From Ananas comosus (Eukaryota; Streptophyta; Magnoliopsida; Poales; Bromeliaceae), in NCBI RefSeq assembly GCF_001540865.1, contig NC_033641.1, positions 5,694,603 to 5,758,602 on the forward strand: a stretch of DNA of 64,000 bases. The letters run 5' to 3'. Below the pieces are notes generated by a model. It saw nothing but the letters and a program-made list of their open reading frames with translations. It was not told where the DNA came from and searched no databases. Made by a program: the position numbers and the translations under genes. Shown here piece by piece: positions 3,801 to 64,000 of this stretch (positions are counted from its first letter, which is position 1; each line of letters starts with the position of its first letter).

Positions 3801-4044
3801 GGCTGTACCGGTGACAACTCAATCGTTGTACCGGTACACTTTGCCCAGAATGCTGGTTTTGCGTCGTTTTCGATTCTATTTCGCGCCGGTCGATGTTAAA
3901 ATCCTTTTAACTCTTTTAGAACTCCTTTTCAACCCTTCCAACATTGTTGGAATGTCAACCAGACTTTGTCCATCCATTTCTCTCGGCATTTTAACCAATT
4001 TGGCTAAAGTTCGATAATCGCTATCGAGCTTTCGATACATTACA
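834..4044 (-). mobile_element. Gypsy-type LTR, minus orientation, split by a MITE
   Basis: On the minus strand the LTR begins at 4044 (TGTAATGTATCG) and proceeds leftward. Its array uses the alternative palindrome GTACCGGTAC, between 3639 and 3835, followed by a leader with many CT-rich stretches. The part at 2650-3100 resembles, in reverse, the LTR at 27600-28570 (for example the segment around the word cttcgttttgccgc). The LTR is interrupted at 1457-2648 by a MITE and at 833/834 by the neighbouring LTR, so its 3' end is not seen. Confidence 0.6.
1457..2648. mobile_element. PIF/Harbinger-like MITE, about 1.2 kb, very AT-rich core
   Basis: The ends form an inverted repeat: GGCTGTGTTTGGTTCC on the left and, reading the complement of the right end, GGTAGCGTTTGGTTCG. 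A TAA target duplication flanks it (1454-1456 and 2649-2651). Sub-terminal stretches are rich in GGAACAAG/CTTGTTCC-type words. The core, 1620-2460, is nearly pure A/T built from repeats of the word taataataattatt. There is no coding sequence, so it must move, if at all, with a transposase from elsewhere. The TAA duplication points to PIF/Harbinger rather than hAT or Mutator. Confidence 0.75.
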
Positions 4045-26464: not shown

Positions 26465-26861
26465 TAAGCGTAGGAAGCATGTTAGAGATGAAGGAATCAA
26501 AGATGAGAAGGAATCAAAAATGGAGAAGGAATCAAAGATGAGAAAGCTTATCTTGATCTCCACAGGTTAGGGCTCAAAAGAGCTCTCTAAGGGGGCTGGG
26601 GTGTTATATATAGAGTTGCAACAATTGCAAATACAACCCCCAACTAAAACAGCCCTCTCTGCAAAGTGTATCGGTACACGGGAAAGTGTATCGGTACAAA
26701 CCCAGTGTACGCGCGAACTCGAGGCTCGGGTTGGCAGAAAATTTCATTTGTACCGGTACAACCATCAAGGTGTAACCGGTACACTTTCTGTACCGGTACA
26801 ACCATCAAGGTGTACCGGTACACAGCCCAGCAAAATGCAACCTGAGAGCAGCCTAAGTCCA
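26465..26861 (-). mobile_element. LTR fragment, minus orientation, GTACCGGTAC type
   Basis: Contains the alternative palindrome GTACCGGTAC between 26752 and 26819 (earlier copies decayed to ATCGGT), and on the minus strand a TATA-like ctatatataac downstream (26604-26614). It ends where the next, plus-oriented LTR starts, so the two LTRs are nested or abutted head to head. Confidence 0.6.
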
Positions 26862-33910: not shown

Positions 33911-36560
33911 TGTAACACACTGGACCTTTGCAAATTGCGAGGCTCGAGTGATTGGATGTGTTTCGAGCTTCTCCACACTTGGTGGAGGGTCGTAGAATAT
34001 TTTCCGACCTAAGAAGTTCGAAAACTTGAGTTCCGGACGAGTCCTGAGAGTTTTCACTCTCGGGGACCGGTCCCTGAAAGGAAAGACCGGTCCCCCAGTG
34101 AGCAGTGTTGTGCTGTCGGCGAGGCAACCGGTCCCTGGCGGGCGAAACCGGTCCTCGAGCGCGCCTTCGCAGTGAGAGACCGGTCCCGCGTAGGGAGAGA
34201 CCAGTTCCCGAACGTTGGTTTTTCGGATTCACAGCGAGAGACCGGTCCCTGCTGGGGAGAGACCGGTCCCTCTGGGCGAAAACTGCCCAAACCGGGCTGA
34301 TGTAATATTGGTTTTTTTGAGGGGCCTCTTGGGATTTTGTTGCAATAGATGGTCTATATGACCCATCCACCCTCTCTTCTCCTCATTTCCCTCCTCACAC
34401 TCTCCCCACACCCTTGCTAGAGAGAGAAGAAGGAGAAGAAGAGGAAGGAGAAGAAGAGGAGAAGGATCTAGCTTGGGCTTGAAGCATTCCTTTGCCTTTC
34501 TTCCTCTTCCCACCTTGTTGGTGCTTGAAGGCTTGGACTTGGAGCTTGCAAAGGAGAAGATCTTCACCCTTGGAGCTTGGATTGGAGTTCTCTTGAGGTT
34601 GGTTGTTTGTTTCTTCCCTCTAGACCTAGCTTTGATGGATTTTAGGGGATGAAACCCTAAAATGGGAAATCTAGGGTTTATTTGGGGCTTTTTGATTGAA
34701 GGCTTTTTGGGCTAATCTAATGAGATTAGAACCTTGGTTTAGGTTGCTTTGGAAGGATCCTAGCCTTCTTTTGGAGCTTGAGAGAGAGATTCTACTCCTT
34801 AGGTGAGTTTTTGCTCTATTCTTGTGATTGTTAATGTTTGAGCTAGAGTTGCTCGTAATGCTTGTATATCTCTTCACTGATCACTTTTAGGGTATTTTGA
34901 GACTCGTGAACAACTTCGTTCGGCGAAACGAAGCCTTACGCGACGGTTTGGTGGGTTTGACCTAGCCTTTAATATGAGAAATTCTCATATATGGTGATAA
35001 ATGCTTCGTAAATTGGAAAAGCATGCATATTCACACTAAATGTATTTATTATGATTTTTGGAAGGCTTAAGATGCCTATGTTACATGTGATGAAATTTTG
35101 AGTCTCCTTGTAGTAGAGGATAGCATATAAGGCTTATGCGGGATTTTTGGCATTCTTATATGGAATCATGTTCCTTGTAGTATAAATGAGCTTGGATTCA
35201 TGTATCTAAACCTAATTTTAATTGAGACATGAAAGATAACAAAATTTGCCATAAAGAGGCACCGAACTTGAATGTCATATGATTTAGAGAGCTAATGTCA
35301 TCAAGCGGCGTTGAGCTCGGGACATGGTTGAACCTAGTGAATAGGGCCATTGAGGGATTGGAAACATGTTGAACATTAAATTGTCTAAGTGTCATCAAGG
35401 GGCACTAGGCGTAATAAATGTTGGAACTTCACTTTGTGACTTAGAACTAGATCTTCGGGATGCTAGTGACTATACCATGTTAGAGACATGATGATTGGAT
35501 ACTTGAGACGTTGACTACGCTTGCTTGCCATTTGTGCTCATTCGCACATGCTTGTGAGGGTCGCTCCCTACAAGCCGGCACTCCGGAGTTAGCCTACGCG
35601 ACTTATGTTCGCTCGTGCGGTATTGAGAAGCCTACGGGGTCGAGTGGGACAGACACATTCCAAGAGTAGGGATGTTGGGCTACCATAGGCACTTAGGCGA
35701 CACAAGCTGGACTACCTTTCGTAGGTCCTTAATTGGAAATGAAAATCGACACAGGGTTGAGAATGAATAATCACTACTAGATAGGATTAGTAGTTGGATT
35801 ACTATGACATGCTTGTAGCATAGTGTTGAGACAGGTAGTATACTTGATAGTCTTATTTATTGCATCATAGTATACTCACTACCATGATAGAGCATATTCT
35901 TCGTACATTGTCATAGTAGATCATGTTACCTACTTGCTCGTTATGTTGGGATATATTATTCATGCTTTGATATACTTCATTTGGATATAGTAAATGTACA
36001 ACCATTTGACATCTTGCTTATGTGCAACATAGTAGTTTAGCATTTTATTTTGCTTTCTTAAATGCAAACCGTTTATTATCATTATAATTATCATAGCTTT
36101 TGGACTTACCCTTTTCTTTTGGGGCCTAGTGGTGCATTGTGCTGAGGTCAGTAATTGCCCACTGGGAACTATAAATTATAGTTCTCACGCCCTCGTTTTC
36201 TTGATGTTTTTCAGAGCCTTCCACGCCGGGAGAGGCTAGGAACCGCGGGAAGAGAGTTGCTTCGATCTAGCTTCCTTCGGGGACGATTTGATAGGTGGTC
36301 TACCTCTCGTTATTTTATTTTGTGAGAGGTTGAGAGTTGTACCCGTATATGTATAGAGACCACCCTTCTTTTGGATTTATGTATTTTTTTTGAGGAGTTT
36401 GCTTTGTATCACCCTTGTGCTTTACTATTATGGATTAGTATGTTTCCTTTCTTTTTGTTTTAGATGATAGAACTTTACTCGCTCTGATATCATTAGATGT
36501 TATTCATTCCTAATCGTTGTGATTCTTGCTTTTACTTTCGCTTTTATTTTAGACGCCTTA
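33911..36560 (+). mobile_element. Gypsy-type LTR, plus orientation, 3' end truncated
   Basis: Starts TGTAACACACTGGACC and is preceded by GAATG. The GGGACCGGTCCC array runs from 34066 to 34267. The downstream word aaactgcccaaaccgggc and a GA-rich leader follow. The 3' landmarks (ctacaagccggcactccgga at about 35568; cccactgggaactataaat and gttctcacgccctcg at 36158-36197) are clear. It stops where a minus-oriented LTR starts at 36561, so its terminal GTGACA is missing. Confidence 0.75.
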
Positions 36561-37453: not shown

Positions 37454-37548
37454 CATATCAATTTGCTAAAGTTTTTTGAATCACAAATCGATTGTTCTTA
37501 TGTTCAAAATATATAAATCGTTGTGTTTGACAGGGGTTTTCTTCGAAA

Positions 37549-38623
37549 ATGTACTCATGGCTACTTGTTCTTGTGGTTCTTATGGCTGGTGGTGGTCGTG
37601 GAAGTAAGCGACAGCGCTCGAAAGCTAAAAAGCCGATTGAGTATCAACCGGAGGATGAAGAGAGCGAATATGCTCCTGGCGACGATTCTGAGGAGGACGA
37701 GCAGGATTGGGAGACTTTTGTTCCTGAAGTTTTAGCTAAGGATAAGGACGCTGGGAAAGGCAAGGGAAAAGGAAAAGCCGTGGATAAAGGCAAAGGAAAG
37801 GCAATTGAGCGTCCCAGTCGTCGTAAGTCCGGGGGTGTTGAAATTCGTGAACCGGGCTCTGAACCACCACGTCACAGTCTACAGGATGTTCCATCTAATC
37901 GACGGTCGATGTACTCGTCGAAACACTGTATTGGTGAGCGAGATGTTGGGGTGGCCAGTATCATTAGTTGTGTGCCGGGTTTTCAGGAGTTATTTGAACA
38001 GGGAAATCTTCATCAGATTTGTGATTTTCCGGAGCAAACCGGTTATTGCTTGGAGTTGATCAGAGAATTTTACATGAGAGCAGGTCACCTCCGTGACTCC
38101 GACGGCGGTCCGTACGTGTTTAAGACTTCCGTACGTGGTGTTGAGTTATCCATCACTCCTGAGACAATAGCTTCGGTGCTAGAGATGGAAGCTAAGACTG
38201 ACGGAGTGGAGTATCTGCAGGCCGGGTTCGACTCACTTCGAGATTGGAACCGTGTCGTGAACACTATCTGCATGCCGGGTACTGAATCAAACGGAATTAT
38301 GGTTATGTCCAAAGATTTCAAAATGGAGTACAGATTTTTGCACTTCGTGGTTTGCTATAACATCATGCCTCTCGCAAACACGAAAATTTTGAGATGGGAT
38401 CGTATTTTGTATATGTATCTTTTGGGACGGCCTGATATTGTGAGTGCGAAAAACATTAACATGAATATTCCGTTTCTGATCTGGCGGCGGATGGCGAAAG
38501 ACATCAAAACCTCTGGACAAAATGAGAGGTTACCATTTCCTTTAATCATTATGCGGATTTTGCGACTTCGTGAGGTGGATGTTCGGTGTACATCATATGA
38601 GCACAGTTTGGGTCGGATCAATG
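37549..38623 (+). pseudogene. env-like ORF of the outer element, N-terminal part
   Basis: An open frame of about 358 codons up to the insertion point. The first 20 residues are hydrophobic if the ATG at 37549 is used (YSWLLVLVVLMAGGG). A second ATG at the MAGGG would remove most of that. A basic/acidic region follows (GKGKGKGKAVDKGKGK, about residues 72-90). Then comes a folded domain of about 220 residues, from the conserved SMYSSKHCIGERDVG to LREVDVRCTSYEHSLGRIN, that resembles the putative plant transposon protein domain found next to plant retrotransposons. The protein's job is unknown. The ORF is cut by the inner element at 38624, so it is dead, though the reading frame is otherwise open. 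Confidence 0.75.
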
Positions 38624-39835
38624 TGTTAAGGATTTTATAGGTTGGCGAATTTCGTATAGTTGTTTGGAGTCTTGAAGAGTTGGTCGCAGAAGTTTTTGAG
38701 AAGAGATTCAAATTGGAGGACAAAGACTCATTCGGAAAGATCGACACCTAAGGTATGAATAAAAGATCATTTGTGGTGAAGATACATAATTAGAATAAGT
38801 TCAGAAGGCTTAGATCGATTTAAAACAACTTTTCTGAACTTTCATGTGTTCTGGGACCGGTCTCTGAGATGGAGAGACCGGTTCCCCCAAGGTCCTCACT
38901 GCGTAAACCATGATGGAACCGGTCCCCTGTGATGAGAGACCGGTTCCCGAACCTTGGTGGTTCTGTCGCACAGCGAGGGACCGGTCTCAAGTTTGAGAGA
39001 CCGGTTCCCGAACGTTGGGTTTCTGGTCACGCAGAGAGGGACCGGTTCCTCACTTGAGAGACCGGTCTCTCACAGACCGGTCTCCTCAAAAGGACCGGTC
39101 TCTGAGGACGACACAGGTTTTTGAAAACGACTTTTTGCAATCCTAGTCTACTTCTAAGTCTTCTAAACATATAAATAAGCTATGTGGGTCATCTAAAATT
39201 AAGGCTTTGAATATTTTACCAATTCTAAACTCTAGAAACTTGTTTCTTCCCGTTTCAATGCTTAGATTTACATGATGAGTTTCTAGTAATCAACATCGGC
39301 TTGATTCTTCGTTTTTACTCGATACTTCTTACGAGAATCAAGTAGATGGTTGATTAAAGGTGAACCCTCATAGCTTATGGTTTTCAAAAGTTAAATCACC
39401 ACAAATCTTCAATTCTACAAGCTCCGGAAGGAGGTTCGGCGCGTGGATCTCGCGTGAAGCCGAGGATTCGGTGGACGCTTCGAGGAGTTGAGGCGTTGAC
39501 GCTGCGAGGAGTTGCAGCAAGGTCGATTGGTGGATTCCTATCGATCGAGGACCGGCAAAGATCACCGTCAACGAGAAATCGGTAAATTGAGTCGTGTGTT
39601 TTTGTCGAAATCACTTGTACTCAAGTTTTCTTAGTGGATTTTCTTTGCGTGATCGGTCCCGTGGGTTTTTCACTCCGAATTGGAGTTTTCCCACGTTAAA
39701 TTCTCGGTGTGCTATTTTAATTTCCGCTATTGTGTTTTGTTTGCATCGAGATTTTTCGAGTTTGCCGGATTTACACCTATTCACCCCCCTCTAGGTGTTA
39801 CTTACCTTTTAGATCCTCGGGATCCATATCTTACA
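38624..39835 (+). repeat. 5' LTR of the inner Sirevirus
   Basis: 1212 bp, TGTTAAGG...CTTACA. Ten ACCGGT sites lie between 38856 and 39099, mostly as pairs GGGACCGGTCTC / GAGAGACCGGTTCCC that are inverted relative to each other. A TATA box follows at 39170-39177. Confidence 0.95.
38856..39099. promoter_or_regulatory. ACCGGT palindrome array in the U3 of the 5' LTR
   Basis: Ten ACCGGT hexamers in 244 bp, about 70 bp upstream of the TATA box. Each hexamer is palindromic and contains CpG, and neighbouring pairs form longer inverted repeats. Palindromic arrays at this place are described for Sireviruses. Their use as enhancer, silencing nucleation site or both is unproven. Confidence 0.85.
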
Positions 39836-39837
39836 AG

Positions 39838-39849
39838 TGGTATCAGAGC
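39838..39849 (+). other. Primer binding site of the inner Sirevirus
   Basis: TGGTATCAGAGC, complementary to the 3' end of initiator methionyl-tRNA, two bases after the 5' LTR. Confidence 0.95.
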
Positions 39850-39867: not shown

Positions 39868-42800
39868 ATGGCTGAGGGCGGTAACATCAATCGACCCCCG
39901 CTCTTCGATGGCACTAACTATGCTTATTGGAAAGTCCGTATGAGGGCGTTTCTTATTGCTATCGACGAGCGGGTTTGGCAAGCCATTGAATTCGGATGGA
40001 AAAATCCTACCGAAGTTGTCGAGAATGTTACCGTGCCGAAACCTAGGAATAAATGGACGAAAGAGGAAAATGAACTATCTTCGTTCAACGGGAAAGGTAT
40101 CAATGCTTTATTCAATGCTTTAAACCAAACTGAATTTTCTCGCGTCTCGGCGTGCGAAACCGCCAAAGAGATTTGGGACACTTTGCGAGTTACACACGAG
40201 GGTACAAGTTTGGTTAAGATTCAAAAATTGCAAATGCTTACTAGCAGATTTGATTCCATTCGTATGGAAGAACATGAATCTTTTACCGAGTACTATACTC
40301 GTTTGCAAGACATTGTAAACACGTGTGCTAACTTGGGCGAGAAAATTCCCGATTCCAAAATTGTTCGAAAAATTTTGAGAACCCTTCCCGAACGATTCCG
40401 TCCTAAGGTTGCGGCTATCGAAACGGTTAAACATCCTGATGAACTCAAGGTAGAAGAACTAGTAGGTGCTCTTCAAACTTATGAAATGACTTTTCCATCT
40501 AATTCATCTTCTTCCAAGTCTTTCTCTAAAGCCTCAGGGATGGCTCTAAAATCAACAAAAGGAGATGCTTCTTCAACCTCATCAGATTCAGAGTCGGAGC
40601 AAAGCTTGGAGGACTTTGAGAAACAACTCGCACTTCTAACAAAGAAGTTCCGTCGGAACTTTAGAAAGAAGTTTCCTCCCAAGTCTACTTCATCAAAGAC
40701 AAACAAATCAAATGGGGGTCCGTCTTCTTCTTCCTCGTCAAAATACAGAAAATCTGATAACTCTCAAAAGGACTCCACAAAAGAGAGGAAAAGCGGTGAA
40801 GGTCAAATCCAATGCTACAAGTGTAGGGGCTTTGGCCATATAGCGTCTGACTGTCCTAATAAAAAGTCATTGAAGAAGAAAGCTATGCAAGCTATGACTT
40901 GGGACGACTCCTCATCTGAAGATTCTACTTCGAGTGAAGAGGATGTGAATGCCACAGCACTGTTTGCACAGGATTCAACTTTCATGTGTCTAGCATCTGC
41001 TGACTCGATTTCTACGACATCTATACAAGAGAGGTCATCTTCGGAGAACTCATCGGATGAAGAATCGGACGAAGACGATATGGTCGCAGCATATCAACAA
41101 TTGGTTGTTGAATCAAAGAAGATGGCTAAACATAACAAGAAACTGCGGCGTAGCCTACATGAGTTGGAACAAGAAAATTCAAAGTTGGCCTCTCTAACAA
41201 AGGATTTAGAACAAGAGAGAGATGGGTTGACCAAGGCTTACAATTCTTTGCTTGAGAAGTGTTCGTTACTTGAAAAAGAAAAGGAGACTCAGGCGGAGAA
41301 CATCAAGTATCTTACCAAGCAAAACTCAGAAGCTAGAGAAGCAAATATGGAATTCACCAAGACGATCATTCAACTGAAGTCGGATTTGAACCAATTTTCA
41401 TCTGGCTCGAGCAAACTAGACAAGATGCTTGGACTTGGTCAAACAAGTAAACTTGGACTTGGTTATGAACGGACTTATCTTGATCAAGCTATGAAGAAAG
41501 ACGATGGAAATTCGTCAACGGCCGTTCCTAAACATTATGGTAAGTTTGTCTCTCCTAAAAACAATGTGGCTAACAAAACTTGTCATATTTGTGGTCTTTT
41601 AGGACATATAAAGAAATTCTGCTACCAAATGGGAAAGAGCTCAATAGCTTCTTTGAAGAGTGATCCTAAAACGACAACGAAGTCAACTGTGATTCCAAGG
41701 AAGATAGAACATAAGAAGAGACAAACTTGGACGCCAAATACTCCAAAGCCAAAGGCAAAACAAGCGTGGAAACCAAAGAAGGAGGATATGAAGAAGAAGT
41801 CAATTCAAATCGTCGACAAGCCACGATCAACAAAAGCAAGCGAACTGTCACAACCCAAAACACGTAAGGTTTGGGTGCGCAAAGGTGAACTCTTCCCATG
41901 CCTAGTCATTCACACTTCACTTCATGCTTACGATAACTCATCTTGGTATCTAGATAGTGGCTGTTCCCGTCACATGACCGGAGATAAAAATTGGTTTGCT
42001 TCTTTGACCAAAATCTCCGGAGGACTTGTTGTCTTTGGGGACGGTCGATCGTCAAAAATCGTTGGAAAAGGAACAGTGGCTATCTCAGATGGCCCTACTT
42101 TGAACGATGTTTTTTATGTTGAGGGGCTTAAATCTAATCTCGTAAGCATAAGCCAACTGTGTGATGATGGGTACTCTGTGAACTTTTCTGATAAAGAATG
42201 CCATGTTACTCGTGATGACAATCTATTCTTAAAGGGCATTAGATCTCAGAATAATTGTTATGTAGTTCCTAGTTCGGCCACTGAACATTGTAACCTAGCG
42301 TCATTAGAAACTGAAACTTTATGGCATGAACGACTAGGTCACATCAATTTTAAAGAGCTATCAAAGATAACCAAGAAGGAAGTAGTTAGAGTTGTACCTA
42401 AGATTGATTTTAAAGAGAACACTGTGTGTGGGGGTTGCCAATTAGGGAAACAAACTAGATCCACACATAAGAACTTGAACCACTTAGGGACAACTAAACC
42501 TCTAGAGTTACTTCACATGGATTTGATGGGACCATCTAGGATTCAAAGTTTGGGTGGTAAACGTTATATTCTGCTTATTGTTGATGATTTTACTCGATAT
42601 GTATGGAGTGCTTTCTTACGAGAAAAAGCTGATACTTTTAATTCTTTTTCTGAAATCTGTCTTCGTCTTATGACTGAACGAAATGAGAAAATCGTACGCA
42701 TTCGAAGCGATCAAGGGGGAGAATTCATAAATTCCAAATTTGTTGATTTCTGTGTTTCAAACGATATAAAACATGAATTCTCGGCCCCCTATACACCCCA

Positions 42801-45030
42801 ACAAAATGGAGTGGTTGAACGTAAGAATCGGGTTGTACAGGAGATGGCTCATGTTATGCTTCATAGTAAGAAAATTGCTTTACATTTTTGGGCCGAAGCA
42901 GTTAACACAGTTGTCTATGTTATCAATCGGATTTATGTACGTCCGGGCACTTTGAATACGCCTTATGAACTTTGGCTTGGTAGAAAACCTAACATTAAAT
43001 ACTTTCGTGTCTTCGGGAGTAAATGTTTTATCCTTCGGGATCGCAAAAATCTTGGAAAATTTGACTCTCGCAGTGACGAAGGCATATTTCTTGGTTATTC
43101 TACTACAAGTCGTGCTTATCGTGCGTACAATTTACGATCTAAGACGGTGATAGAGTCTATCAATATAAAAGTAGATGAAGCTTCTTCTGTAAGTTCTTCT
43201 GTGAATGGTTCTTCTAATTCTTTGATGAATGACAATGATAATGATTCTCCGTTTGTAATGCATGTGAATGATGATGTTTCTATACCTGATAATTCCATTG
43301 CATCTTCTGAAAACATTGCATCAAATGATTCATTTGAGCCACAAAACACTACGCCTGAAATCCCTAGCGGATCTCCTGAAACTATCCCCCTGACTGAGTC
43401 AAGAGATCATCCTTTGTCGAATGTGATTGGGGATCCTAATGTTGGTGTGCGAACAAGAAGTCAGTTACAATGTGAATTTGCGTGTTATGTTTCTTTGATC
43501 GAGCCAAAGAATGTTGACGAAGCTCTTGCTGATGAATATTGGATAAATGCTATGCAAGAAGAACTTGGTCAATTTGTTCGCAATGATGTATGGGAATTGG
43601 TGCCTCGTCCTGAGCAACAACACATTATTGGTACCAAATGGATCTTTAAGAATAAGAAAAATGAGGATGGTACTATCGTGCGGAACAAAGCCAGACTTGT
43701 GGCTCAGGGGTACTGTCAAATTGAGGGAATAGACTTTGAAGAAACCTTTGCTCCGGTTGCCCGCCTTGAATCTATTCGTATCTTGTTTGCGATTGCTTGT
43801 CATTTTAAAATTACGCTTTTTCAAATGGATGTCAAAAGTGCGTTTTTAAATGGATTTTTAAAAGAGGAAGTTTATGTTGAACAACCGAAAGGTTTTATAG
43901 ACTCAAAATTTCCAAATCATATTTTTCGACTGAAAAAGGCACTTTATGGACTAAAACAAGCTCCGCGAGCATGGTACGAACGTTTGACAAAATATCTTTT
44001 GGAAAAGGGCTATAACCGAGGGGGAGCAGACAGAACTCTTTTTGTGAAGCATCTGAAGAATAATTTCAATGTAGCACAAATATATGTGGATGACATAGTT
44101 TTTGGGGCTACTAAAGATAAGGATGCCGCTGATTTTGCAAAGTTAATGACCAGTGAGTTTGAGATGTCAATGATGGGGGAGCTTAATTATTTTCTCGGGC
44201 TGCAAGTAAAACAATCAAAAGATGGAATTCATTTGTCACAGACAAAGTATGCGAAGGAACTAGTTAAGAAATTCGGACTAGAAAGTGCAAAGGATTTTGT
44301 CACTCCGATGGGTACAAGCAACAAAGGATTGGGTTTGAATTCAGAAGGTCAGAGTGTGGATGAGAAACAGTACAGAAGCATGATTGGTAGCCTTTTGTAT
44401 CTGACTACGAGCAGACCTGACATTGCGTTTAGTGTTGGAATATGTGCTCGTTATCAGGCTAATCCTAAGGAAGTACATCTGAAAGCAGTTAAAAGGATTA
44501 TTCGATATGTTAAAGGAACAACCGAGTATGGACTATGGTATCCTATGGGAACGTCTCTTGACCTAATCGGCTACTCGGATGCTGACTGGGCAGGCTCCGC
44601 AGATGATCGAAAAAGTACTAGTGGGGCATGTTTTTACATCGGACATTGTTTGGTCGCTTGGCACAGTAAGAAGCAAAATTGCATCGCTCTTTCCACTGCA
44701 GAAGCTGAATACATTGCAGCTGGAAGTTGCTCTACTCAATTGATTTGGATGAAAAGCTTACTAAGCGACTATCGGATTCCTTCTACCACTCTGACTATTC
44801 TGTGTGACAACACAAGTGCAATTAATATTTCAAAAAACCCTGTTTTACATTCTCGAACAAAACATATTGAACTACGATATTATTTTTTAAGAGAACTGGT
44901 AGAATCAAACGTTTTACAACTTGAATACATTTCAACTGAAAATCAACTTGCAGATATTTTAACCAAACCTTTGGATCAAAAACGTTTTCTGCATTTGAGA
45001 AAGGCAATTGGTATGAACCCATCAATCTAG
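39868..45030 (+). CDS. Sirevirus gag-pol polyprotein, intact
   Basis: 1720 codons without a stop. Order: a DUF4219/UBN2-type gag (about residues 10-220); a CCHC zinc knuckle (C316-C329); a serine-rich, acidic, coiled-coil stretch (about 365-540), typical of the long Sirevirus gag; a second CCHC (C572-C585); aspartic protease with DSG at D696; integrase with H820/H825/C854/C857 and D885, D948, E984 (the last two 35 residues apart); copia-type reverse transcriptase with D1321 and YVDD at 1406-1409; RNase H with D1571, E1612 or E1614 and D1647. All catalytic residues are present. The first ATG lies 19 bases after the primer site. Single-frame gag-pol is normal for copia. It is the only element here with an open pol and could supply proteins in trans. 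Confidence 0.96.
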
Positions 45031-46053
45031 ATGTAGTCTATTGAGCCACAGATCATGTGCATGGTGCATATTTTGTTTCTTTTCTTGCATGATTTTCTGT
45101 GTTTGACAGTAGATTGAATTTCGAGAATAATCTTGCTGTTTTGGGACGTGAATTGGTCTATGACTTGTATTATTTCATATTTGTTTTTTGGTTGATCACT
45201 GTCAGGGTTATTCTCTATTGGCATATTTTTACACGATCAAATCATTAAGATTCTTGTTAACATGTTGAATCATATTCAGCACCTCATGCGTCGAACTTTG
45301 AATGTTGCAATCATTTGTTTGATTATTAGTTTTGAGATGAATAAATCTTTCTCTGTTTTGAAATAACTATAATATTTTAACTTGAGGGTTGCACTAATTT
45401 AGGGGGAGTCTTTCTAATTCTAGCTATGAATATTTCTGAAATTCAAGATGTGGAAAGAGTTACATCCCTGCTGGGAGTGTGAAAACTACCACCACATGGA
45501 GGAAAGAGCTACCACCCCGGTCGTCCGGTTAGTGTGTGCAGCTACCACATGTTGATTAAAGTATTTATGTGAGACAAAAGAAAAGTACTTCTCAGAAAGA
45601 AAAAAAAAAAGAATAATATGCTCAAAGAGCTTTACATCTTGTAGGTGATATAAGGTGGAATGTCAATAAAAGATGCTCAAAGAGCCACTCCTGTCTCAGA
45701 CGATGTGCATAACTCAATTTAATCATATTATGTTAATTTCACAATTTTGAGAAATATTTATTTCATTTTCTTTAACAAAATATGATGATAAAATGATACA
45801 ATTTATTTCTAAGATCTTGCATGATGTGTGGGATTTTATTTTATATGTATCAAGAATTCTCATTGATTTTCGGTTAAAAAGTTTGAAATTTTGAATATCC
45901 CTGAACTTGATTTTTCAAAATTCATTTATGAAATTCTATTTAAAGTTTTTTTTTTGGATGAAAATAAGTTATTTGTGATGATTAGATATTATGAGATACC
46001 CTTCATTTTTTTTGGATTTTTTGGGGAGTATTTAAAATTTTTGAAAATTTTCT
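45031..46053 (+). other. Non-coding spacer between pol and env-like ORF
   Basis: About 1 kb, AT-rich, with an internal polypurine-like motif (ATTTAGGGGGAG, 45398-45409) and repeated agctaccac words (about 45480-45550). No ORF of note. Confidence 0.7.
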
Positions 46054-46060
46054 GGCTCGG

Positions 46061-46112
46061 AGACCGGTCTCAGGGAAGAGAGACCGGTCCCTCCGCCCGA
46101 ACCGATATAAAG
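46061..46112 (+). promoter_or_regulatory. Candidate internal promoter for the env-like ORF
   Basis: Two ACCGGT sites (46063-46068 and 46083-46088), in the words GAGACCGGTCTC and GAGACCGGTCCC, are followed 18 bases later by TATAAAG (46106-46112). This copies the layout of the LTR, where the same palindromes precede the TATA box. Transcription would start near 46135-46145 and lead into the env-like ORF. Function is inferred from layout alone. Confidence 0.5.
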
Positions 46113-46227
46113 GTTTTTGCGGGTTCTTCTTTTTCCTTACCAATCTCGCTCAAGTTTTTTCTCCAGAGCTTCTAATATCCCCAGGTTGCTTTTGCTTCCA
46201 TTCTTCATCAATCTTCACTTGATTTTG

Positions 46228-46607
46228 GTATGATTCTCGGATTTTATTTCATTGTTAACCTAGAATCCGAATTTATGCTTTATTTTCAATTTTTGGAGGA
46301 TTTGTTCCTATTATGTTGTTAGATCTTTCCGTCTTTGCCCTGATCTTACCCCTAGACATGTTAGTCAACATTTTCATGCATTATTTCGTTTTTTATATAC
46401 AATTGTTTGGTTGTTTTTGCTACTTTTTCATCAAAACCTAGGTTTTCGAAGTTTTCGTATTTTTCTTTACTGATTTTTTTTATGCTTGATTTGTTTATGA
46501 TTTATATGATCATGTGGCTCAGAGGATTATCTAATATTTATATACGAATTTGCTGAAATTTTTGGTTTTAAGGAAATTTTATATGTAAATTTCATTATGT
46601 TTAACAG
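46228..46607 (+). other. Candidate 5'-leader intron before the env-like ORF
   Basis: It begins GTATGA, is T-rich throughout, and ends TTTAACAG 16 bases before the ATG at 46624. The outer element has an equivalent T-rich stretch ending TTTGACAG just before its own ATG (about 37533). The intron is inferred from composition and splice-site words. Confidence 0.45.
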
Positions 46608-46623
46608 GTAATTTTTTCACAAA

Positions 46624-48007
46624 ATGTACTCGTGGGTTCTCGTGCTTGTTGTCCTTATGGCTGGGGGTGGTCGCGGTAGCAAGCGACAGCGCTCCTCGAC
46701 TAAGAGGCCGGTTGAGCAACAACCGGAAGATGAAGGGAGTGAATATGCCCCGGGTGATGAATCTGAGGAGGACGAGCAGGATTGGGAGACTTTTGTTCCT
46801 GAAGTTTTAGCTAAGGTTAAGGACGCTGGGAAAGGCAAGGGCAAAGGAAAAGCCGTGGATAAAGGCAAAGGAAAGGCGACTGAGCGTTCCGGTCGTCGTA
46901 AGTCCGGGGGTGTTGAGATTCGAGAACCGGGCTCTGAACCACCACGTCGCAGTCTACAGGATGTTCCATCTAATCGACGGTCAATGTACTCGTCGAAACA
47001 CTGCATTGGTGAGCGAGATGTTGGGGTGGCCAGTATTATTAGTTGTGTGCCGGGTTTTCAGGATTTGTTTGAACAGGGGAATCTTCATCAGATTTGTGAT
47101 TTCCCGGAGCAAACCGGTTATTGTTTGGAGTTGATCAGAGAGTTTTACATGAGAGCAGGTCACCTCAGTGACTCCGATGGGGGTCCGTACGTGTTTAAGA
47201 CTTCTGTCCGTGGTGTTGAGTTATCCATCACTCCGGAGACAATAGCTTCTGTGCTAGAGATAGAAGCTAAGACTGACGGAGTGGAGTATCTGCAGGCCGG
47301 GTTTGACTCACTTCGAGATTGGAACCGTGTCGTGAACACTATCTGCATGCCGGGTACTGAATCAAACGAAATTATGGTTATGTCAAAAGATTTCAAAATG
47401 GAGTACAGGTTTCTGAACTTTGTGGTTTGCTACAACATCATGCCTCTCGCGAACACGAAAATCTTGAGATGGGATCGGATTCTGTACATGTATCTCTTGG
47501 GTAGGCCAGATATTGTGAGTGCAAAAAAATATTAACATGAATATTCCATTTCTGATCTGGCGGCGGATGGCGAAAGACATCAAAACCTCTGGGCAAAATG
47601 AGAGGTTACCATTTCCTATGATAATTATGCGGATTTTGCGACTTCGTGAGGTGGATGTTCGGTGTACATCATATGAGCACAGTTTAGGTCGGATCAATGA
47701 AAGGACGTTTGTAAAGTCCTCGGTGCAGCTTCGTACGCCGTCTCAACGTGCTTCTACCCCTCCTGCAGCTCCACCTCCTGCTACTGCTACTTCTTCCCGT
47801 CCTTCTATCGACATTTCTGAGGAAGATGTTTCTGTTTCATCGGTGTATCGCGAGCAGCAACGTTTATCTGAGGAGCTACAAAAGTTGTCTGCAGAACAAG
47901 CTGTGATTCGTAAGGATGTGAGCAAGATGAAGCGCTTGTTGAATATGATTTTTGACATATTGGGATGTTGTCGGGCAGATTTACCTCCAGGAGATGATTC
48001 TGACTAG
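46624..48007 (+). pseudogene. env-like ORF of the inner element, frameshifted
   Basis: The first frame (46624-47535) and the second (47519-48007) together cover the same protein as the outer element's ORF: hydrophobic start, GKGKGK-type basic region, the putative plant transposon protein domain, a P/A/T linker and a coiled-coil tail. They part at 47521-47528, where seven A's stand in place of five, adding one base and creating a TAA. Everything else is open, so a single late mutation broke it. Position downstream of pol fits the env-like gene of some Sireviruses. I see no proof that it is a true envelope: there is a hydrophobic N-terminus but no second membrane segment. Confidence 0.8.
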
Positions 48008-48495: not shown

Positions 48496-48506
48496 AAAGG
48501 GGGAGA
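48496..48506 (+). other. Polypurine tract of the inner Sirevirus
   Basis: AAAGGGGGAGA, one base before the 3' LTR. A near copy lies at 48051-48063, 430 bases upstream, right after the env-like ORF. Confidence 0.9.
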
Positions 48507-48507
48507 T

Positions 48508-49719
48508 TGTTAAGGATTTTATAGGTTGGCGAATTTCGTAAAGTTGTTTGGAGTCTTGAAGAGTTGATCGCAGAAGTTTTTGAGAAAAGATTCAAATTGG
48601 AGGACAAAGACTCATTCGGAAAGATCGACACCTAAGGTATGAAGAAAAGATCATTTGTGGTGAAGATACATAATTAGAATAAGTTCAGAAGGCTTAGATT
48701 GTTTTTAAACAACTTTTCTGAACTTTCTTGTGTTCTGGGACCGGTCTCTGAAATGGAGAGACCGGTTCCCCCAAGGTCCTCACTGCGTAAACCTTGATGC
48801 AACCGGTCCCCTGTGATGAGAGACCGGTTCCCGAACCTTGGTGGTTCTGTCGCGCAGCGAGGGACCGGTCTCAAGTTTGAGAGACCGGTTCCCGAACGTG
48901 GGGTTTTTGGTCACGCAGGGAGGGACCGGTTCCTCACTTGAGAGACCGGTCTCTCACAGACCGGTCTCCTCGACAGGACCGGTCTCTGAGGACGACACAG
49001 GTTTTTGAAATCGACTTTTTGCAATCCTAGTCTACTTCTAAGTCTTCTAAACATATAAATAAGCTATGTGGGTCATCTAAAATTAAGGCTTTGAATATTT
49101 TACCAATTCCAAACCCTAGAAACTTGTTTTCTTCCCGTTTCAATGCTTCGATTTACATGATGAGTTTCTAGCAATCAACATCGGCTTGATTCTTCGTTTT
49201 TACTCGATACTTCTTACGAGAATCAAGTAGATGATTGATTAAAGGTGAACCCTCATAGCTTATGGTTTTCAAAAGTTAAATCACCACAAATCTTCAATTC
49301 TACAAGCTCCGGAAGGAGGTTCGGCGCGTGGATCTCGCGTGAAGCCGAGGATTCGGTGGACGCTTCGAGGAGTTGAGGCGTTGACGCTGCGAGGAGTTGC
49401 AGCAAGGTCGATTGGTGGATTCCTATCGATCGAGGACCGGCAAAGATCACCGTCAACAAGAAATCGGTAAATTGAGTCGTGGGTTTTTGTCGAAATCACT
49501 TGTACTCAAGTTTTCTTAGTGGATTTTCTTTGCGTAATCGGTCACGTGGGTTTTTCACTCCGAATTGGAGTTTTCCCACGTTAAATTCTCGGTGTGCTGT
49601 TTTAATTTTCGCTATTTTGTTTGTTTGCATCGAGATTTTTCGAGTTTGCCGGATTTACACCTATTCACCCCCCTCTAGGTGTTACTTACCTTTTAGATCC
49701 TCGGGATCCATATCTTACA
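48508..49719 (+). repeat. 3' LTR of the inner Sirevirus
   Basis: 1212 bp, same ends as the 5' LTR, with ten ACCGGT sites between 48740 and 48983. By eye it differs from the 5' LTR at about 30 positions, more than half of them in the first 490 bases. Confidence 0.95.
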
Positions 49720-49724
49720 CAATG

Positions 49725-55073: not shown

Positions 55074-57496
55074 TGTCACGCCCCGGGACCCAGCGGAAGC
55101 CCGCCCGGCACGTGTCCAGACCCGCCATATGTCTAAAACATATAAGGCGTCTAAAAACAACAATAATAAAAGCGATAGTAAAAGACATCTAGGAGTATCA
55201 GAGCATAATGAAAGTCTAAATGCTACAATAAAGGATAAGGATAAAACTGTAAATCCACTAAATAAGACATAAAGTAATACAAGGAAATTCCAGGTATAAG
55301 TGCTATAGGTAGATACATAGGTGGTCTCTATACATGGATTCAAAAACCTCTCACTCTCTCAACTACAAAAAGAAAGAGTAAACCACCTAGGCAAAGTACC
55401 GCTCCTCGCTAGCTAGCTAAGCAATCCCCTTGCTGCGATCCTGTGCCTCCGCCGGTGCCGAAGGCTCTGAAAAGTAAACCATAAAACAGGGGCGTGAGAA
55501 CTATTAAAAATAGTTCCCAGTGGGCAATTACTGACTTCAGTGAATGCACCATGAGGCCGAAAGCTACAAAGATGTCAGTGAACTATGCATGAAGTAAAAG
55601 TCTCCAACTATCATAATGTCCACAATGCGAAATAGTAAAGTTCCGTTGTTTACTATTCTAGTCAATGTCCAAGTAATACTCTAAGTCATTATCTGTCCAC
55701 GTGTCGTAATGAATACTCAAAGTCAAATCTGAAGAGACCCACCCGAAGGCTGTCTATGGCCCTGAGACCCACCCGTAGGCTGTCTGGCCGGTGCCGAGCC
55801 TAATGGCCCCATGGTAGTCATCATCCCCACCCTAGGAATGAGCCTGTCCCATGGCAATCCACTTCGGCGCCCAATCCCGCACGGCGAATATAAATCGCGA
55901 TGGCCATCTCCGGAGTGCCGGCTTGTAGGGAGCGACCCTTACAAGCATGTGCGAATGAGCACAATGGCAAGTAGTCACACAATCTGTCACAAGTACCAAG
56001 TCCTCATGTCTAATAACATGAAATGTGTCAAGTATCTCAATGGCCTATCCCTATGTCATCATGTCTCTAACATGGAATATAGCAGATATGTAGTGGCCTA
56101 TCAACATGTCTCTACGTTGCAGTTTCATAGTTTACTAGTTTCAAGTGCCCCTTTATGACACTCTTGTTCTCTATGACAAACCATGGTAACTATATTCCGA
56201 AGTACATATTCCAAGTCATAATCCTCATAAGGGATGTATTTTTCACTTGCAAAATAAACACTTTTCCCGTATGCATGCATTCTACTCATATAGCTTTACT
56301 ATATAGTGAAATTTTCATAATACACAAGGCATGCATTTTAAGTGCTCTAAAATTTATATAAATTTCATTTAGCATAGAAATGAACTTAAAAATATTTTAC
56401 AACAAATAGAAAGAGCATAGGGGCCATTTCGCCCCATTTCCACGAAGCCAAACCCACCAAAATCGACTTCTTCGTTTCGCCGAACGAAGGTATCCACAAG
56501 CTTCCTAGTACCCTAGAAACATCAAAAATAGGGTCACCCAAACTAAACGAAGAGCAAATAGCTCAATCATTAACCAACTCAAGCTAGGGTTGGGAGGAAC
56601 TCACCTCAAGTGAAAAACCTTCTCTAAATCCTCAAATAGAAGGTAGGGGTCTTCCAATCTAACTTATATAAAGGTTCCAAACCCATCAAAAGAGATCAGG
56701 AAGCCTCAAATCTAAAAACCCCCAAAATAAATCCTAAATCCCAAAATCTAGGGTTTCATCTAGCAAAACCTAGGAAACAAGTATCAAATGGGGATTATAA
56801 GCTACCAACCTCAAGAGAAGCTCCAATCCAAGCTCAAAACCAAGTAGGGTTGAAGTTTGATCCTCCACAAAGCTCCAGCCGCAAGTTCAAAGCCACCAAA
56901 GGTGAGAAATGATGAAGAAGATGGTGCTCCAAGGCCTCCAAGCAAGCTCCTTCTCCTCTTCTTCTCCTTCTTCTCCTTCCCTTTCTCTCTCTAGAAGTGT
57001 AGGAAGAGTGTGAGGGAGAGAAAATAAGAGTGAGAGGGGAGGAGAGGCTGCCTATGGCCTCTAAGGTAACAAAATCCACTTAGGCCCCTCAAAAACTCAA
57101 ATTTACATCAGCCCGGTCTGAGCAGTTTTCGCCCAGAGGGACCGGTCTCCCCGACCTGGGACCGGTCTCTCAGCCTGCCCCCGACAATCCAACGTTTGGG
57201 AACCGGTCTCTCCCTGCGCGGGACCGGTCTCTCCCCGCGCAGACGCGCTCGGGGACCGGTCTCGACTGCCAGGAACCGGTTGCCTCGCCGGCTGCGCAGC
57301 ACTGTTCACTGGGGGACCGGTCTCTCCCATCAGGGACCGGTCCCCGAGAGTAAAAACTCTCAGGACTCTGCCAAAACTTTCGAGATCGAACTTTTAGGCC
57401 GGTATACCATCGACGGCCCTCCACCAAGTGTGGAAATGTTTGGAATACACATCGAACACTCGAACGTCGCAATTTGTAAAGGTCCAGTGTGCTACA
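55074..57496 (-). repeat. 5' LTR of the gypsy element, 2.42 kb
   Basis: On the minus strand TGTAGCACACTGG...GGGGCGTGACA. The GGGACCGGTCTC-type array is at 57141-57341, followed by the word aaactgctcagaccgggc and a GA-rich leader. The 3' half (about 55074-56150) is close to identical, in reverse, to 59490-60642 of the solo LTR. Confidence 0.88.
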
Positions 57497-58106: not shown

Positions 58107-60642
58107 TGTAATGCACTGGATCTTGCAAATCGCAAGATTCGAGTGTTTGATCTGTGTCTTGAGCTTTTTCACAGTTTTTGTAGGGTCGTTGATAGTGTTC
58201 CGACCCCTGGCACGCACCCCGAGGACGTTGGTTTGAAACTTGGCACCAAAATTCCAAAATTGGAATTCTTGGTCAGTTCTCGGGTAGCCTGCAGCAGGGC
58301 TTGTACCGGAACAAGGATGGTCTTGTACCGGTACAAGGTTGATGGTTGTACCGGTACAGAGCCGCAGACCCAGCCACCCGAGCCTCGGGTTTGCATTTTC
58401 GTGGGCCTTGTACCGGTACAAGGGCCCGTGTACCGGTACAAGGGGGCAGTTTTTGGGCAGATTGTTCTGCAGGGGTGTTTTTGCTATTGTAGCAATACTA
58501 TAACAGCACCCACGCCCCTAGGGCTCTTCTTTGAGCTTGCCACTGTAGGGAGTAAGGTAAGGGGAGCTTCTCTTTGCTTCTCTTTGGTTTTAATCTCCCT
58601 CTAGCCTAGATTTTGGTGGATTAATCCCTCTCTTTCTCCTCTTTTGTGCTTTTCCTCCATGGATGAAGTTGGAGCTTGGTTTTGGGAGCTTGAGTGAGGG
58701 AAAATCCTTGAAGTTTGGAGACTTTGAGCTTGGATTGAGGCTACTTGGGGGTAAGTAGTATGTTACTCTCCTCTAGATTTGGTTTTGATAGTTTCTTTGA
58801 AGTTGCAACCCTAGATTTTGCATTTTAGGGTTGTTTTTGGGGATTTTCGTTTGAGGGCTTTTGTACCAAATTGATGGTTTAGAACCTTTGTTTAGGTTAG
58901 ATTGGAAGGACTCTAGCTCCCATTTGGAGATTGAGAGAGCTTCCTTCGCAATCGGTGAGTTTTCTCCAACCCTAGCCCAAGATGCTTAAAGATTGAACTT
59001 AGCGTCGTTCGTTTCGACTAGATGACACTTGTTCTCATACCTTTAGGGTACTAGGAGTGTGGTGGACGCCTTCGTCGTGGCAAACGAAAGCTTTCGTTGA
59101 CGACGGTGGGTTTGGCTTCTTTGAAATGGGAGGAAATTCCTCCTATGCGGTTAAATGCTTTCATTTACCATAAGTTCATGTATATTCATGTTTAGTAGCA
59201 TTTATGAGAGTTTTTGAATGCTTAGAACTCATATGTTATGCATCAAGAAAATTTACTCTATATAGTAGAGAGAGACAATGTGCTTTGTTAATATGCATGC
59301 GGCGAACATTCTATGAGATGGTAAGAAATCAAGTTTCTTGCTTCGATTTTGACTAAAATTATAAGTGCTTGAACTTAGTATCCATGTTGGGACAAAATAA
59401 GCCATAGTGTCATAAAGAGGCACTTGGCCGAGAGAATTATTAAACTGCAATATAGAGGCTTGATAATAGGTCACGTTGACATCAACTATATTCCATATTT
59501 AAGATATGATGAAATAGTGACTTGGCCACGATGACATTTATTATATTCCATGTTTGAGACATGACGACCTAGAGATAGGCCTATGAGATTAGTGACATAT
59601 TCCATGTTATTAGACATGAGGACTTGGTACTTTTGACAGATCGTTTGACTACTTGCCATTGTGCTCATTCGCACATGCTTGTGAGGGTCGCTCCCTATAA
59701 GCCGGCACTCCGGAGATGGCCATCGCGATTTATATTCGCCGTGCGGGATTGGGCGCCGAAGTGGATTGCCGTGGGCCAGGCTCATTCCTAGGGTGGGGAT
59801 GATGACTACCACGGGGCCATTAGGCTCGGCACCGGCCAGACAGCCTACGGGTGGGTCTCAGGGCCATAGACAGCCTTCGGGTGGGTCTCTTCAGATTTGA
59901 CTTTGAGTATTCATTATGACTTGTGAACAGATGATGACTTAGGGTACTACTTGGACATTGACTAGAATAGTAAACTACGGAACTTTACTATTTCGCGCTG
60001 TGAACATTGTGATAGTTGGAGACTTTCACTTCATGCATAGTTGTTTTCATACTTATGCTATTTATGCTAAGTAGAGACTGTATGTTGTAGTAAGTTACAA
60101 TTTTACTTACCTTTCACTTTTCTACTTTTATAATCACTGACATCTTTTGTAGCTTTGGGCCTCGTGGTGCATTCACTGAAGTCAGTAATTGCCCACTGGG
60201 AACTATTTTTAATAGTTCTCACGCCCCTATTTTATGGTTTACTTTTCAGAGCCTTCAGCACCGGCGGAGGCACGGGATCGCGGCAAGGGGATCGCTTAGC
60301 TAGCTAGCGAGGAGCGGTACTTTGCCTAGGTGGTTTACTCTTTCTTTTTGTAGTTGAGAGAGTGTGAGGTTTTTGTATCCATGTATAGAGACCACCTATG
60401 TATCTACCTATAGCACTTGTATCTGGGATTTCCTTGTATCACTTTATGTTTTATTTAGTGGATTTACAGTTTTATCCTTATCTTTTGTGGTAGCATTTAG
60501 ACATTTATTATGCTCTGATATTCCTAGATGTTTTTTATTATCGCTTTTATTATTATTGTTTTTAGACGCCTTATATGTTTTAGACGTATGGCGGGTCTGG
60601 ACACGCGCCGGGTAGGCTTCCGCTGAGCCCCGGGGCGTGACA
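58107..60642 (+). mobile_element. Solo LTR, gypsy type, 2.54 kb, TSD GATAA
   Basis: TGTAATGCACTGG...GGGGCGTGACA with GATAA duplicated at 58102-58106 and 60643-60647. Its array uses GTACCGGTAC (58327-58437) instead of GGGACCGGTCCC. The 3' half is nearly the same as that of the gypsy 5' LTR at 55074, in the opposite orientation. No internal region remains. Confidence 0.93.
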
Positions 60643-62905: not shown

Positions 62906-64000
62906 CTAATGCTTAATCTGCGCCAACATGTGCCGGGCGTCTCTGCTGCTGGGCCTCTCATTCGGATCATCGTACGTGCAGAAGCAAGCAATCTTCAGAA
63001 CCAACAGCATCTGCTCCTCAAACCCCTTCCCCACCAGCTTCCGGTCGATCGCAGCCGTCGGATTCTCCGACTGCAGCGCAGCCCGGACCCATCCGATGAC
63101 CCACATCTCGTCAGTCTGCTGAAAGAACTCGTCCGACGGGAACCTCCCGGTGACCAGGGCCGCCAGGATGACCCCGAACGAGTAGACATCGCTCTTTTCT
63201 GTGTACGACAGCGTCTGGTAGTACTCCGGCGCGATGTACCCCAGAGTCCCGGCCACGTTGTTTGAATTCATCGGCCCGCTGATCGCGTCGCCGGGGACGA
63301 GCTTCGCGAGCCCGAAGTCGGCGATCCGGGGTTTGAGATCTCCGTCGAGGAGAATATTCCCTGGCTTCAGGTCGCGGTGGATCACCTTCGGACGGTGCAC
63401 GGTGTGCAGGTACTCGAGCCCCGCGGCGACGCCGAGGGCGATCTTGAGCCGGCAGGGCCAGTCCAGCAGCGGAGAGCCGCGTTTCATCACGTCGTGCAAC
63501 GAGCCGTGCGGCATGTACTCGTAGACGAGGTAGTGGCAGCGCGGCTGCGGGAGGTGGGCCAGAAGGCGGAGGAGGTTAGGGTGGCGCATGCGGCCGACCG
63601 TCATGATCTCCGACCGAATCTGGCGCGTGCGGTGGTGGAGCATTTTGCTGTCATCCCGGCACAGCTGCGCGGCGTTGGCGGGCGGCTGGACGATCTTCTT
63701 GATGGCGACGGGAACGGCGCGGTCGCGATAGAGGAGCACGGCCTTGTAGACCTCGCCGCAGCCGCCGCGGCCGATCACCTCGAGAGGGCACGGGAGGTGG
63801 CTGCGCGAAAGGAGGTCGATGAGGGAGATGTTCTCGGGGTCGAGGAGCATCGGGGTGAAGATCGTGGCCGTGTTGTTGCCCGGCTCCTCAGGGCGGCAGA
63901 TCGCGCTCCTGATTCTGGTGCAGCAGGAGACGGACAGCAGCCGGAGGACGAAGGCGACGATTCCGAGCGCAAAGCCGACGGCGAAGGAGACGGAGGCACC
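62906..64000 (-). CDS. SOBIR1: SOBIR1-type receptor-like kinase, C-terminal part
   Basis: The frame is open from the window edge to the stop at 62906-62908, giving 364 residues; the N-terminal signal and leucine-rich repeats lie beyond the window. The first 27 visible residues are a membrane helix with small-residue spacing (GASVSFAVGFALGIVAFVL). A juxtamembrane part and a full kinase domain follow: IGRGGCGEVYKA glycine loop, catalytic-lysine motif VAIKK, QIRSEIMTVG helix, HRDLKPGN catalytic loop, DFG, GYIAPEY, and the ending LLVLKIACFC...LAQIKH. These phrases are characteristic of SOBIR1, the adaptor kinase that pairs with receptor-like proteins and BAK1 at the plasma membrane in cell-surface immunity. 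All key catalytic residues are present. Codons are GC-rich. Confidence 0.92.
   Translation of the reverse strand, partial: GASVSFAVGFALGIVAFVLRLLSVSCCTRIRSAICRPEEPGNNTATIFTPMLLDPENISLIDLLSRSHLPCPLEVIGRGGCGEVYKAVLLYRDRAVPVAIKKIVQPPANAAQLCRDDSKMLHHRTRQIRSEIMTVGRMRHPNLLRLLAHLPQPRCHYLVYEYMPHGSLHDVMKRGSPLLDWPCRLKIALGVAAGLEYLHTVHRPKVIHRDLKPGNILLDGDLKPRIADFGLAKLVPGDAISGPMNSNNVAGTLGYIAPEYYQTLSYTEKSDVYSFGVILAALVTGRFPSDEFFQQTDEMWVIGWVRAALQSENPTAAIDRKLVGKGFEEQMLLVLKIACFCTYDDPNERPSSRDARHMLAQIKH

Follow-up and report, generated by a model that had tools for sequence, protein, structure and literature searches.

Bousios et al. (2010) reported that the palindromes of the LTR recur upstream of ENV in nine Sireviruses (PMC2829016). 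According to passages of that paper, 77 of the 79 copies of the linker motif lie before ENV, and the motifs were termed Sirevirus specific on the basis of a comparison of Copia elements. An internal promoter was favoured there but not conclusively identified, and the idea was credited to Peterson-Burch and Voytas (2002). Further marks of the group given in PMC2829016 are the polypurine tract AGGGGGAG 10 bp upstream of the 3' LTR, with more copies in the linker, a polyC-rich signal at the 3' end of the LTR and a palindromic motif with a CGG-CCG core upstream of the TATA box. Stop-codon suppression and an internal promoter are listed as modes of expression in a passage of PMC3414828, and the expression of the envelope-like gene in Sireviruses other than SIRE1 was left open in 2010 (PMC2829016). 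Passages of PMC5738225, PMC6696364 and PMC6022998 add nothing on the expression of the Sirevirus env-like gene. In the literature searched, with most subscription papers beyond reach, we found no description of a Sirevirus env-like leader intron or of an identified internal promoter. The initial annotation of the locus studied here had regarded the reuse of LTR-type palindromes before an env-like gene as undescribed; this novelty has to be given up, as such reuse is already contained in Bousios et al. (2010).

In this study, we analysed a window of 64,000 nucleotides of Ananas comosus DNA, to which all positions refer unless a locus is named. It contains a Copia element that sits within an older copy of its own family, whose env-like ORF it interrupts, and that is flanked by a 5-bp target duplication, CAATG (38619-38623 and 49720-49724, by eye). 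The features of this inner element are collected in Table 1. As judged from its sequence, it is likely that its env-like ORF forms a transcription unit of its own, with a promoter made of a palindrome pair and a TATA-like box, an ATG-free exon and a leader intron. The primer site of the inner element is at 39838, a Pfam search with pieces of 39868-45027 found the Copia domain set including the RVT_2 reverse transcriptase, and the linker between pol and env is 1.6 kb long. AGGGGGAG is also present in the linker, at 45401 and 48055, and CACCCCCCTCTAGGTG, a candidate for the polyC-rich signal, lies close to the LTR end (by eye). On the basis of the domain set and the polypurine tract, the inner element is classified as a SIRE-type Copia element (Sirevirus, SIRE lineage of Ty1/copia). 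The ten ACCGGT of the LTR, followed by TATAAA, fit the Sirevirus motif in position and palindromy; the motifs in the passages of PMC2829016 have a CGG-CCG core, whereas in ACCGGT, with its core CCGG, these triplets overlap and stand in the opposite order.

Table 1. Features of the inner element, and of the outer copy where indicated, in window positions.
Feature	Position	Strand	Basis or remark
Acceptor TTTGACAG of outer copy, same family	37526..37533	+	15 nt before ATG at 37549
5' LTR	38624..39835	+	Repeat table, self-comparison; start TGTTAAGG and end TTACA by eye
Ten ACCGGT palindromes in LTR, four pairs 20/21 bp apart	38856..39099	+	Motif scan
LTR TATA box, TATAAA	39170..39175	+	76 bp after start of last palindrome
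gag-pol ORF, 1720 aa	39868..45030	+	Copia gag, Pol_BBD, GAG-pre-integrase, integrase, RVT_2
Highly conserved block of pol-env linker	45440..45560	+	Copy alignments; part of it is first exon in P0001
First palindrome of pair, ACCGGT	46063..46068	+	Motif scan, conservation in copies
Second palindrome of pair, ACCGGT	46083..46088	+	Motif scan, conservation in copies
TATA box of proposed internal promoter, TATAAA	46106..46111	+	Motif scan, conservation in copies
Proposed non-coding first exon	46139..46227	+	Start inferred at about TATA+33; end demonstrated by copies lacking the intron
Leader intron, GT-AG, 380 nt	46228..46607	+	Precise absence in L076 and L083; donor and acceptor tables
Donor GT	46228-46229	+	TTTTG/GTATGATT
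Acceptor TTTAACAG	46600-46607	+	Motif scan
Predicted rest of 5' UTR	46608..46623	+	13-18 nt in 30 copies, all three frames
env-like ORF, 303 aa in window copy, PF20167	46624..47535	+	Pfam
Polypurine tract AGGGGGAG	48498..48505	+	Starts 10 bp before 3' LTR
3' LTR	48508..49719	+	Repeat table, self-comparison

The motifs named in the initial annotation (the ACCGGT pair, TATAAA, donor, acceptor and the ATG at 46624) are all present where they had been placed, and their order before the env-like ORF is that of the LTR, in which ACCGGT palindromes are likewise followed by TATAAA. GAGACCGGTCTC occurs both before the env-like ORF (46063) and in the LTR (39061). Among 5000 sequences generated by a first-order Markov model of 45031-46623, not one contained two ACCGGT with 8-30 nt between them.

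For the comparison of copies, the assembly of 382 Mb was searched with window positions 46001-46700, which gave 40 scored matches of 230 candidates; 30 of these 40, the window's own copy included, were taken as loci, and 10 further copies were fetched. A protein search was done with P0001 (Ananas comosus LOC109722274), a public gene model and the best public match of the env-like protein. It returned 131 matches, 130 candidates out of 829 having been scored, and its 30 loci mostly belong to another subfamily. The loci from this protein search are called group III, and groups I and II are told apart by the leader bases that follow the acceptor. Counts for 65 copies refer to those of the 70 loci that could be placed by donor-like and TATA-like patterns, and these copies are mutually related. 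Left out were L012 (start of a contig), L055 and L065 (donors outside the patterns, GT by eye), L059 (N) and L067 (foreign upstream sequence).

Among 768 hexamers (starts 45851-46618), 11 never vary in 29 other copies, one of which is without the palindrome region. The invariant hexamers of the linker start at 46062-46064, 46078-46084 and 46105, which are the two palindromes with their flanks and ATATAA. In the 30-locus set, both ACCGGT and TATAAA/G are kept in all 29 loci that have the region, and the GT donor and the CAG acceptor in 30/30; among the 10 further copies, L032 is without the second palindrome and L038 is altered in the first. Both palindromes are intact in 58 of the 65 copies and one in the remaining seven, with a spacing of 20 bp in 38 copies and of 21 bp in 20. 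The box reads TATAAG in 40 copies, GATAAA in 18, AATAAA in four, TATAAA in two and GAGAAA in one, so that 23/65 are without TATAA; in group III it is mostly GATAAA, and the palindrome pair and the donor are retained in most copies of this group. The donor is GT in 65/65 copies, a figure that is in part a product of the selection, as the copies had been located with the help of a donor-like pattern. Readable acceptors end in CAG in 61 of 63 cases (one by eye) and in TAG in the other two; that of L052 is TTTAACAG (by eye). The conservation across family members on which the initial annotation had made its reading depend is therefore seen for the palindrome pair and the splice sites, but not for TATAAA proper, which is rare (2/65).

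The proposed exon before the donor is characterised by a near lack of ATG. The exon segment 46136-46227 has no ATG in 30/30 copies, while the introns of the same copies contain 330 in total. In the larger set, the stretch from TATA+35 to the donor is ATG-free in 63/65 copies, with two ATGs in 5838 nt where 45.0 +/- 6.7 would be expected (the lowest of 300 shuffles had 29), and the first 370 nt of the intron hold 617 ATGs in 24050 nt. Counted from the start of the box, the first 33 nt contain 26 ATGs, many of them shared by descent; the 28 nt that follow contain none, and two occur further on. The leader exon is only 49% identical between groups I and III and 53% between groups II and III, and both sides avoid ATG. 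In 32 independent nearest pairs, 256 exon substitutions created two new ATGs against 7.4 expected (as low in 6/300 shuffles), and intron windows of the same pairs gained eight against 8.3 expected and 15 against 7.6. Thus, exon substitutions avoid the creation of ATG and intron substitutions do not. Such a pattern is expected if a 5' UTR exon begins about 33 nt past the box.

The intron is 359-426 nt long in 63 copies. When the assembly was scanned with a pattern for the joined leader, six matches were obtained (three with a reversed control, none forward), and one of the six, L076, is genuine; L071-L075 were rejected as they have no likeness to the family loci. In L076, the end of pol, the linker, the palindrome pair, the box and the exon are followed directly by the bases that otherwise stand after the acceptor. 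A search with 256 nt around the junction of L076 yielded 40 scored matches of 145 candidates, of which 38 break at the junction and only L076 and C3057 (= L083) run through it. L083 belongs to a lineage distinct from L076 and its start codon is altered; both its exon 1 and its ORF share about 94-95% identity with L065, in which an intron of 385 nt is present between these sites. GT-AG boundaries together with precise absence from processed copies are the features by which a spliceosomal intron is recognised. Since two different lineages are without the intron exactly between the predicted GT and AG, the leader intron of the initial annotation proves, on this sequence evidence, to be real. The outer copy has the acceptor-like end before its ATG that had been ascribed to it (Table 1). 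L076 is also a recombinant, because its 5' part is nearest to L079 (96.8%) and its 3' part to L052 (97.1%). The two lineages join at or near the splice junction (L076 positions 1507-1645), and template switching with spliced RNA might give such a copy.

Both intron-less copies keep the linker upstream of the palindromes, so either an RNA longer than the proposed internal transcript was copied or templates were switched. For the same reason, these copies prove the intron and not the promoter. The claim that an own promoter of the third ORF would replace splicing of the LTR transcript was accordingly too strong, unless template switching is assumed.

The env-like ORF is under purifying selection, with a median dN/dS of 0.099 (22 sequences, 219 pairs with dS >= 0.1) and a pN/pS of 0.08 in the first 12 alignment columns. 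As the constraint includes these first columns, translation most likely begins at the ATG after the acceptor. The distances from acceptor to ATG spread over the three frames (17, 11 and 2 of 30), so that no upstream coding exon is common to the family. The frame is open for 460 codons in 10/30 loci, and the window copy stops at 47535. The protein has a short hydrophobic N-terminus (by eye) and basic and acidic stretches; its predicted structure had a pLDDT of 33 and no usable fold. In viral contigs, no relatives were found.

A block of the linker of about 110 nt is 96-99% identical on average within and between the groups in 43 copies, a value that is biased upward since the copies were picked by a motif at the ends of the block, as against 66-86% in the first 300 nt of the ORF. 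In 54 of the 70 loci, the match to the window block is 84-100%. The RNA of the block folds (z -2.67), and no covariation was seen in the copies and no match in Rfam. It is possible that the block is a packaging, processing or splicing signal. The N-terminus of P0001, MEERATTPVVR, is encoded in it (near 45499-45526), and contig C1 of the assembly encodes residues 11-303 of P0001 at 100% identity. As a general coding start, this first exon was rejected because the frame is not kept among the copies. It could be a non-coding exon, with GTYAGT as its donor; this donor is kept in 52 of the 53 loci in which it was found.

ACCGGT occurs 84 times in the whole window against 7.7 expected, because other elements carry it too. 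Clusters, in which neighbours are mostly 15-21 bp apart, are located at 57141-57336 (minus strand), 34066-34262, 20771-20977 and 442-631, and the one at 57.1 kb sits in an LTR-like region before a Ty3-type reverse transcriptase ORF. As the clusters occur in other elements, Ty3-type included, ACCGGT is not special to the env-like gene. GAGAGACCGGTCCC is present at 46083 and in several of the clusters of other elements, and this recurrence hints at a host factor. Other elements carry a second type of palindrome, GTACCGGTAC, at 3639-3830, 26752-26814 and 58327-58432. In locus L067, sequence with GTACCGGTAC-type palindromes (350-1010) precedes the acceptor of the env-like ORF; L067 was rejected as an independent promoter, since it resembles the family only from its base 1458 onwards and has foreign sequence upstream. 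The window also contains short direct repeats of 100% identity (8358-8523/8676-8841 and 28974-29109/29195-29330), which are either young terminal repeats or assembly effects, and an ORF with a protein kinase domain at 62909-63850 (minus strand), probably a host gene.

An internal promoter before the env-like ORF is the best reading of these data and probably correct. It would be a Pol II promoter, in which an ACCGGT pair 20/21 bp apart, about two helical turns, is combined with the TATA-like box, and the palindromes may bind an activator. The RNA would start about 33 nt past the box, near 46139, and open with a leader exon, about 90-110 nt long, that is free of AUG in nearly all copies; removal of the AUG-rich leader intron would then leave a short leader before the ORF. 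Because the palindromes before the ORF resemble those before the TATA box of the LTR, one host or element factor may serve both promoters.

Alternatively, the env RNA might start in the LTR as in a retrovirus and reach the ORF by splicing, with 46607 as the acceptor and with a donor that lies at 46228, near 45527 within the conserved block or in the leader of the LTR; the palindromes would then serve something else. We regard this as unlikely, although it would fit with the linker that both intron-less copies retain upstream of the promoter, which means that a longer RNA was spliced if templates were not switched, and with the GTYAGT donor of the block, which is well kept and is used in P0001. 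In both intron-less copies, however, the donor used is of the 46228 type, and only a minority of copies would have the ATG of the block in the reading frame of the ORF (17, 11 and 2 of 30 per frame). Furthermore, an LTR start does not predict that the avoidance of ATG begins right after the TATA-like box.

Two further explanations concern the origin of the region and the role of the palindromes. The ancestral element might have captured the 5' end of a host gene, with promoter, leader intron and ORF, as cargo, and the palindromes would have come to resemble those of the LTR later or by chance. Ordinary plant genes with a leader intron have this very layout, and the Pfam name of PF20167 is 'putative plant transposon protein', not envelope; since GAGACCGGTCTC is common to the LTR and the region before the ORF, such a capture appears very unlikely, and it concerns the origin of the unit more than its working. 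That the palindromes are conserved as silencing targets or structural DNA motifs and are no promoter parts at all is hardly probable: they contain CpG, and ACCGGT is abundant in several elements of the window, but a TATA-like box at a near-fixed distance, the ATG-free exon and the intron would be left unexplained. For the internal promoter, the window offers concrete base pairs, namely the palindrome pair, the TATA-like box, a predicted start near 46139 and the intron boundaries. It also raises the question why nearly all copies seen keep an intron that the RNA of the element can lose.

In BAGY2 and Athila, the env RNA is predicted to be spliced from the LTR. Like the window element, both have a splice acceptor before the env-like gene, and a spliced env RNA is predicted for them (cited in passages of PMC2829016). 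In the window element, unlike in these two, the donor adjoins the promoter-like region and lies 380 nt from the acceptor. Soybean SIRE1 shares with it the SIRE lineage and an envelope-like gene after pol, but has a single stop codon between pol and env, which is suppressed (cited in PMC2829016). As the window element has a linker of 1.6 kb at this place, simple readthrough from pol to env is very unlikely. In foamy viruses, an LTR and an internal promoter answer to one factor, Tas, according to a passage of PMC8670036; these viruses are unrelated to the window element, in which a Tas-like factor is hypothetical. It is tempting to speculate on a similar circuit of two promoters, in which the paired palindromes would tie both to one factor, possibly the env-like protein acting as a regulator and not as an envelope. 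The leader intron might then allow translation of the internally started RNA, with the full-length genomic RNA mostly escaping splicing. We consider this scenario rather improbable. The Sireviruses of PMC2829016 are alike in having palindromes before the TATA box of the LTR and again before the env-like gene. Passages of that paper mention neither a TATA box before ENV nor a leader intron, whereas the window element combines two palindromes and a TATA-like box with an exon free of ATG and with an intron that is absent from two copies. The idea of an internal promoter is itself old; what is apparently new is the layout of the promoter, together with the lack of ATG in the first exon and the leader intron.
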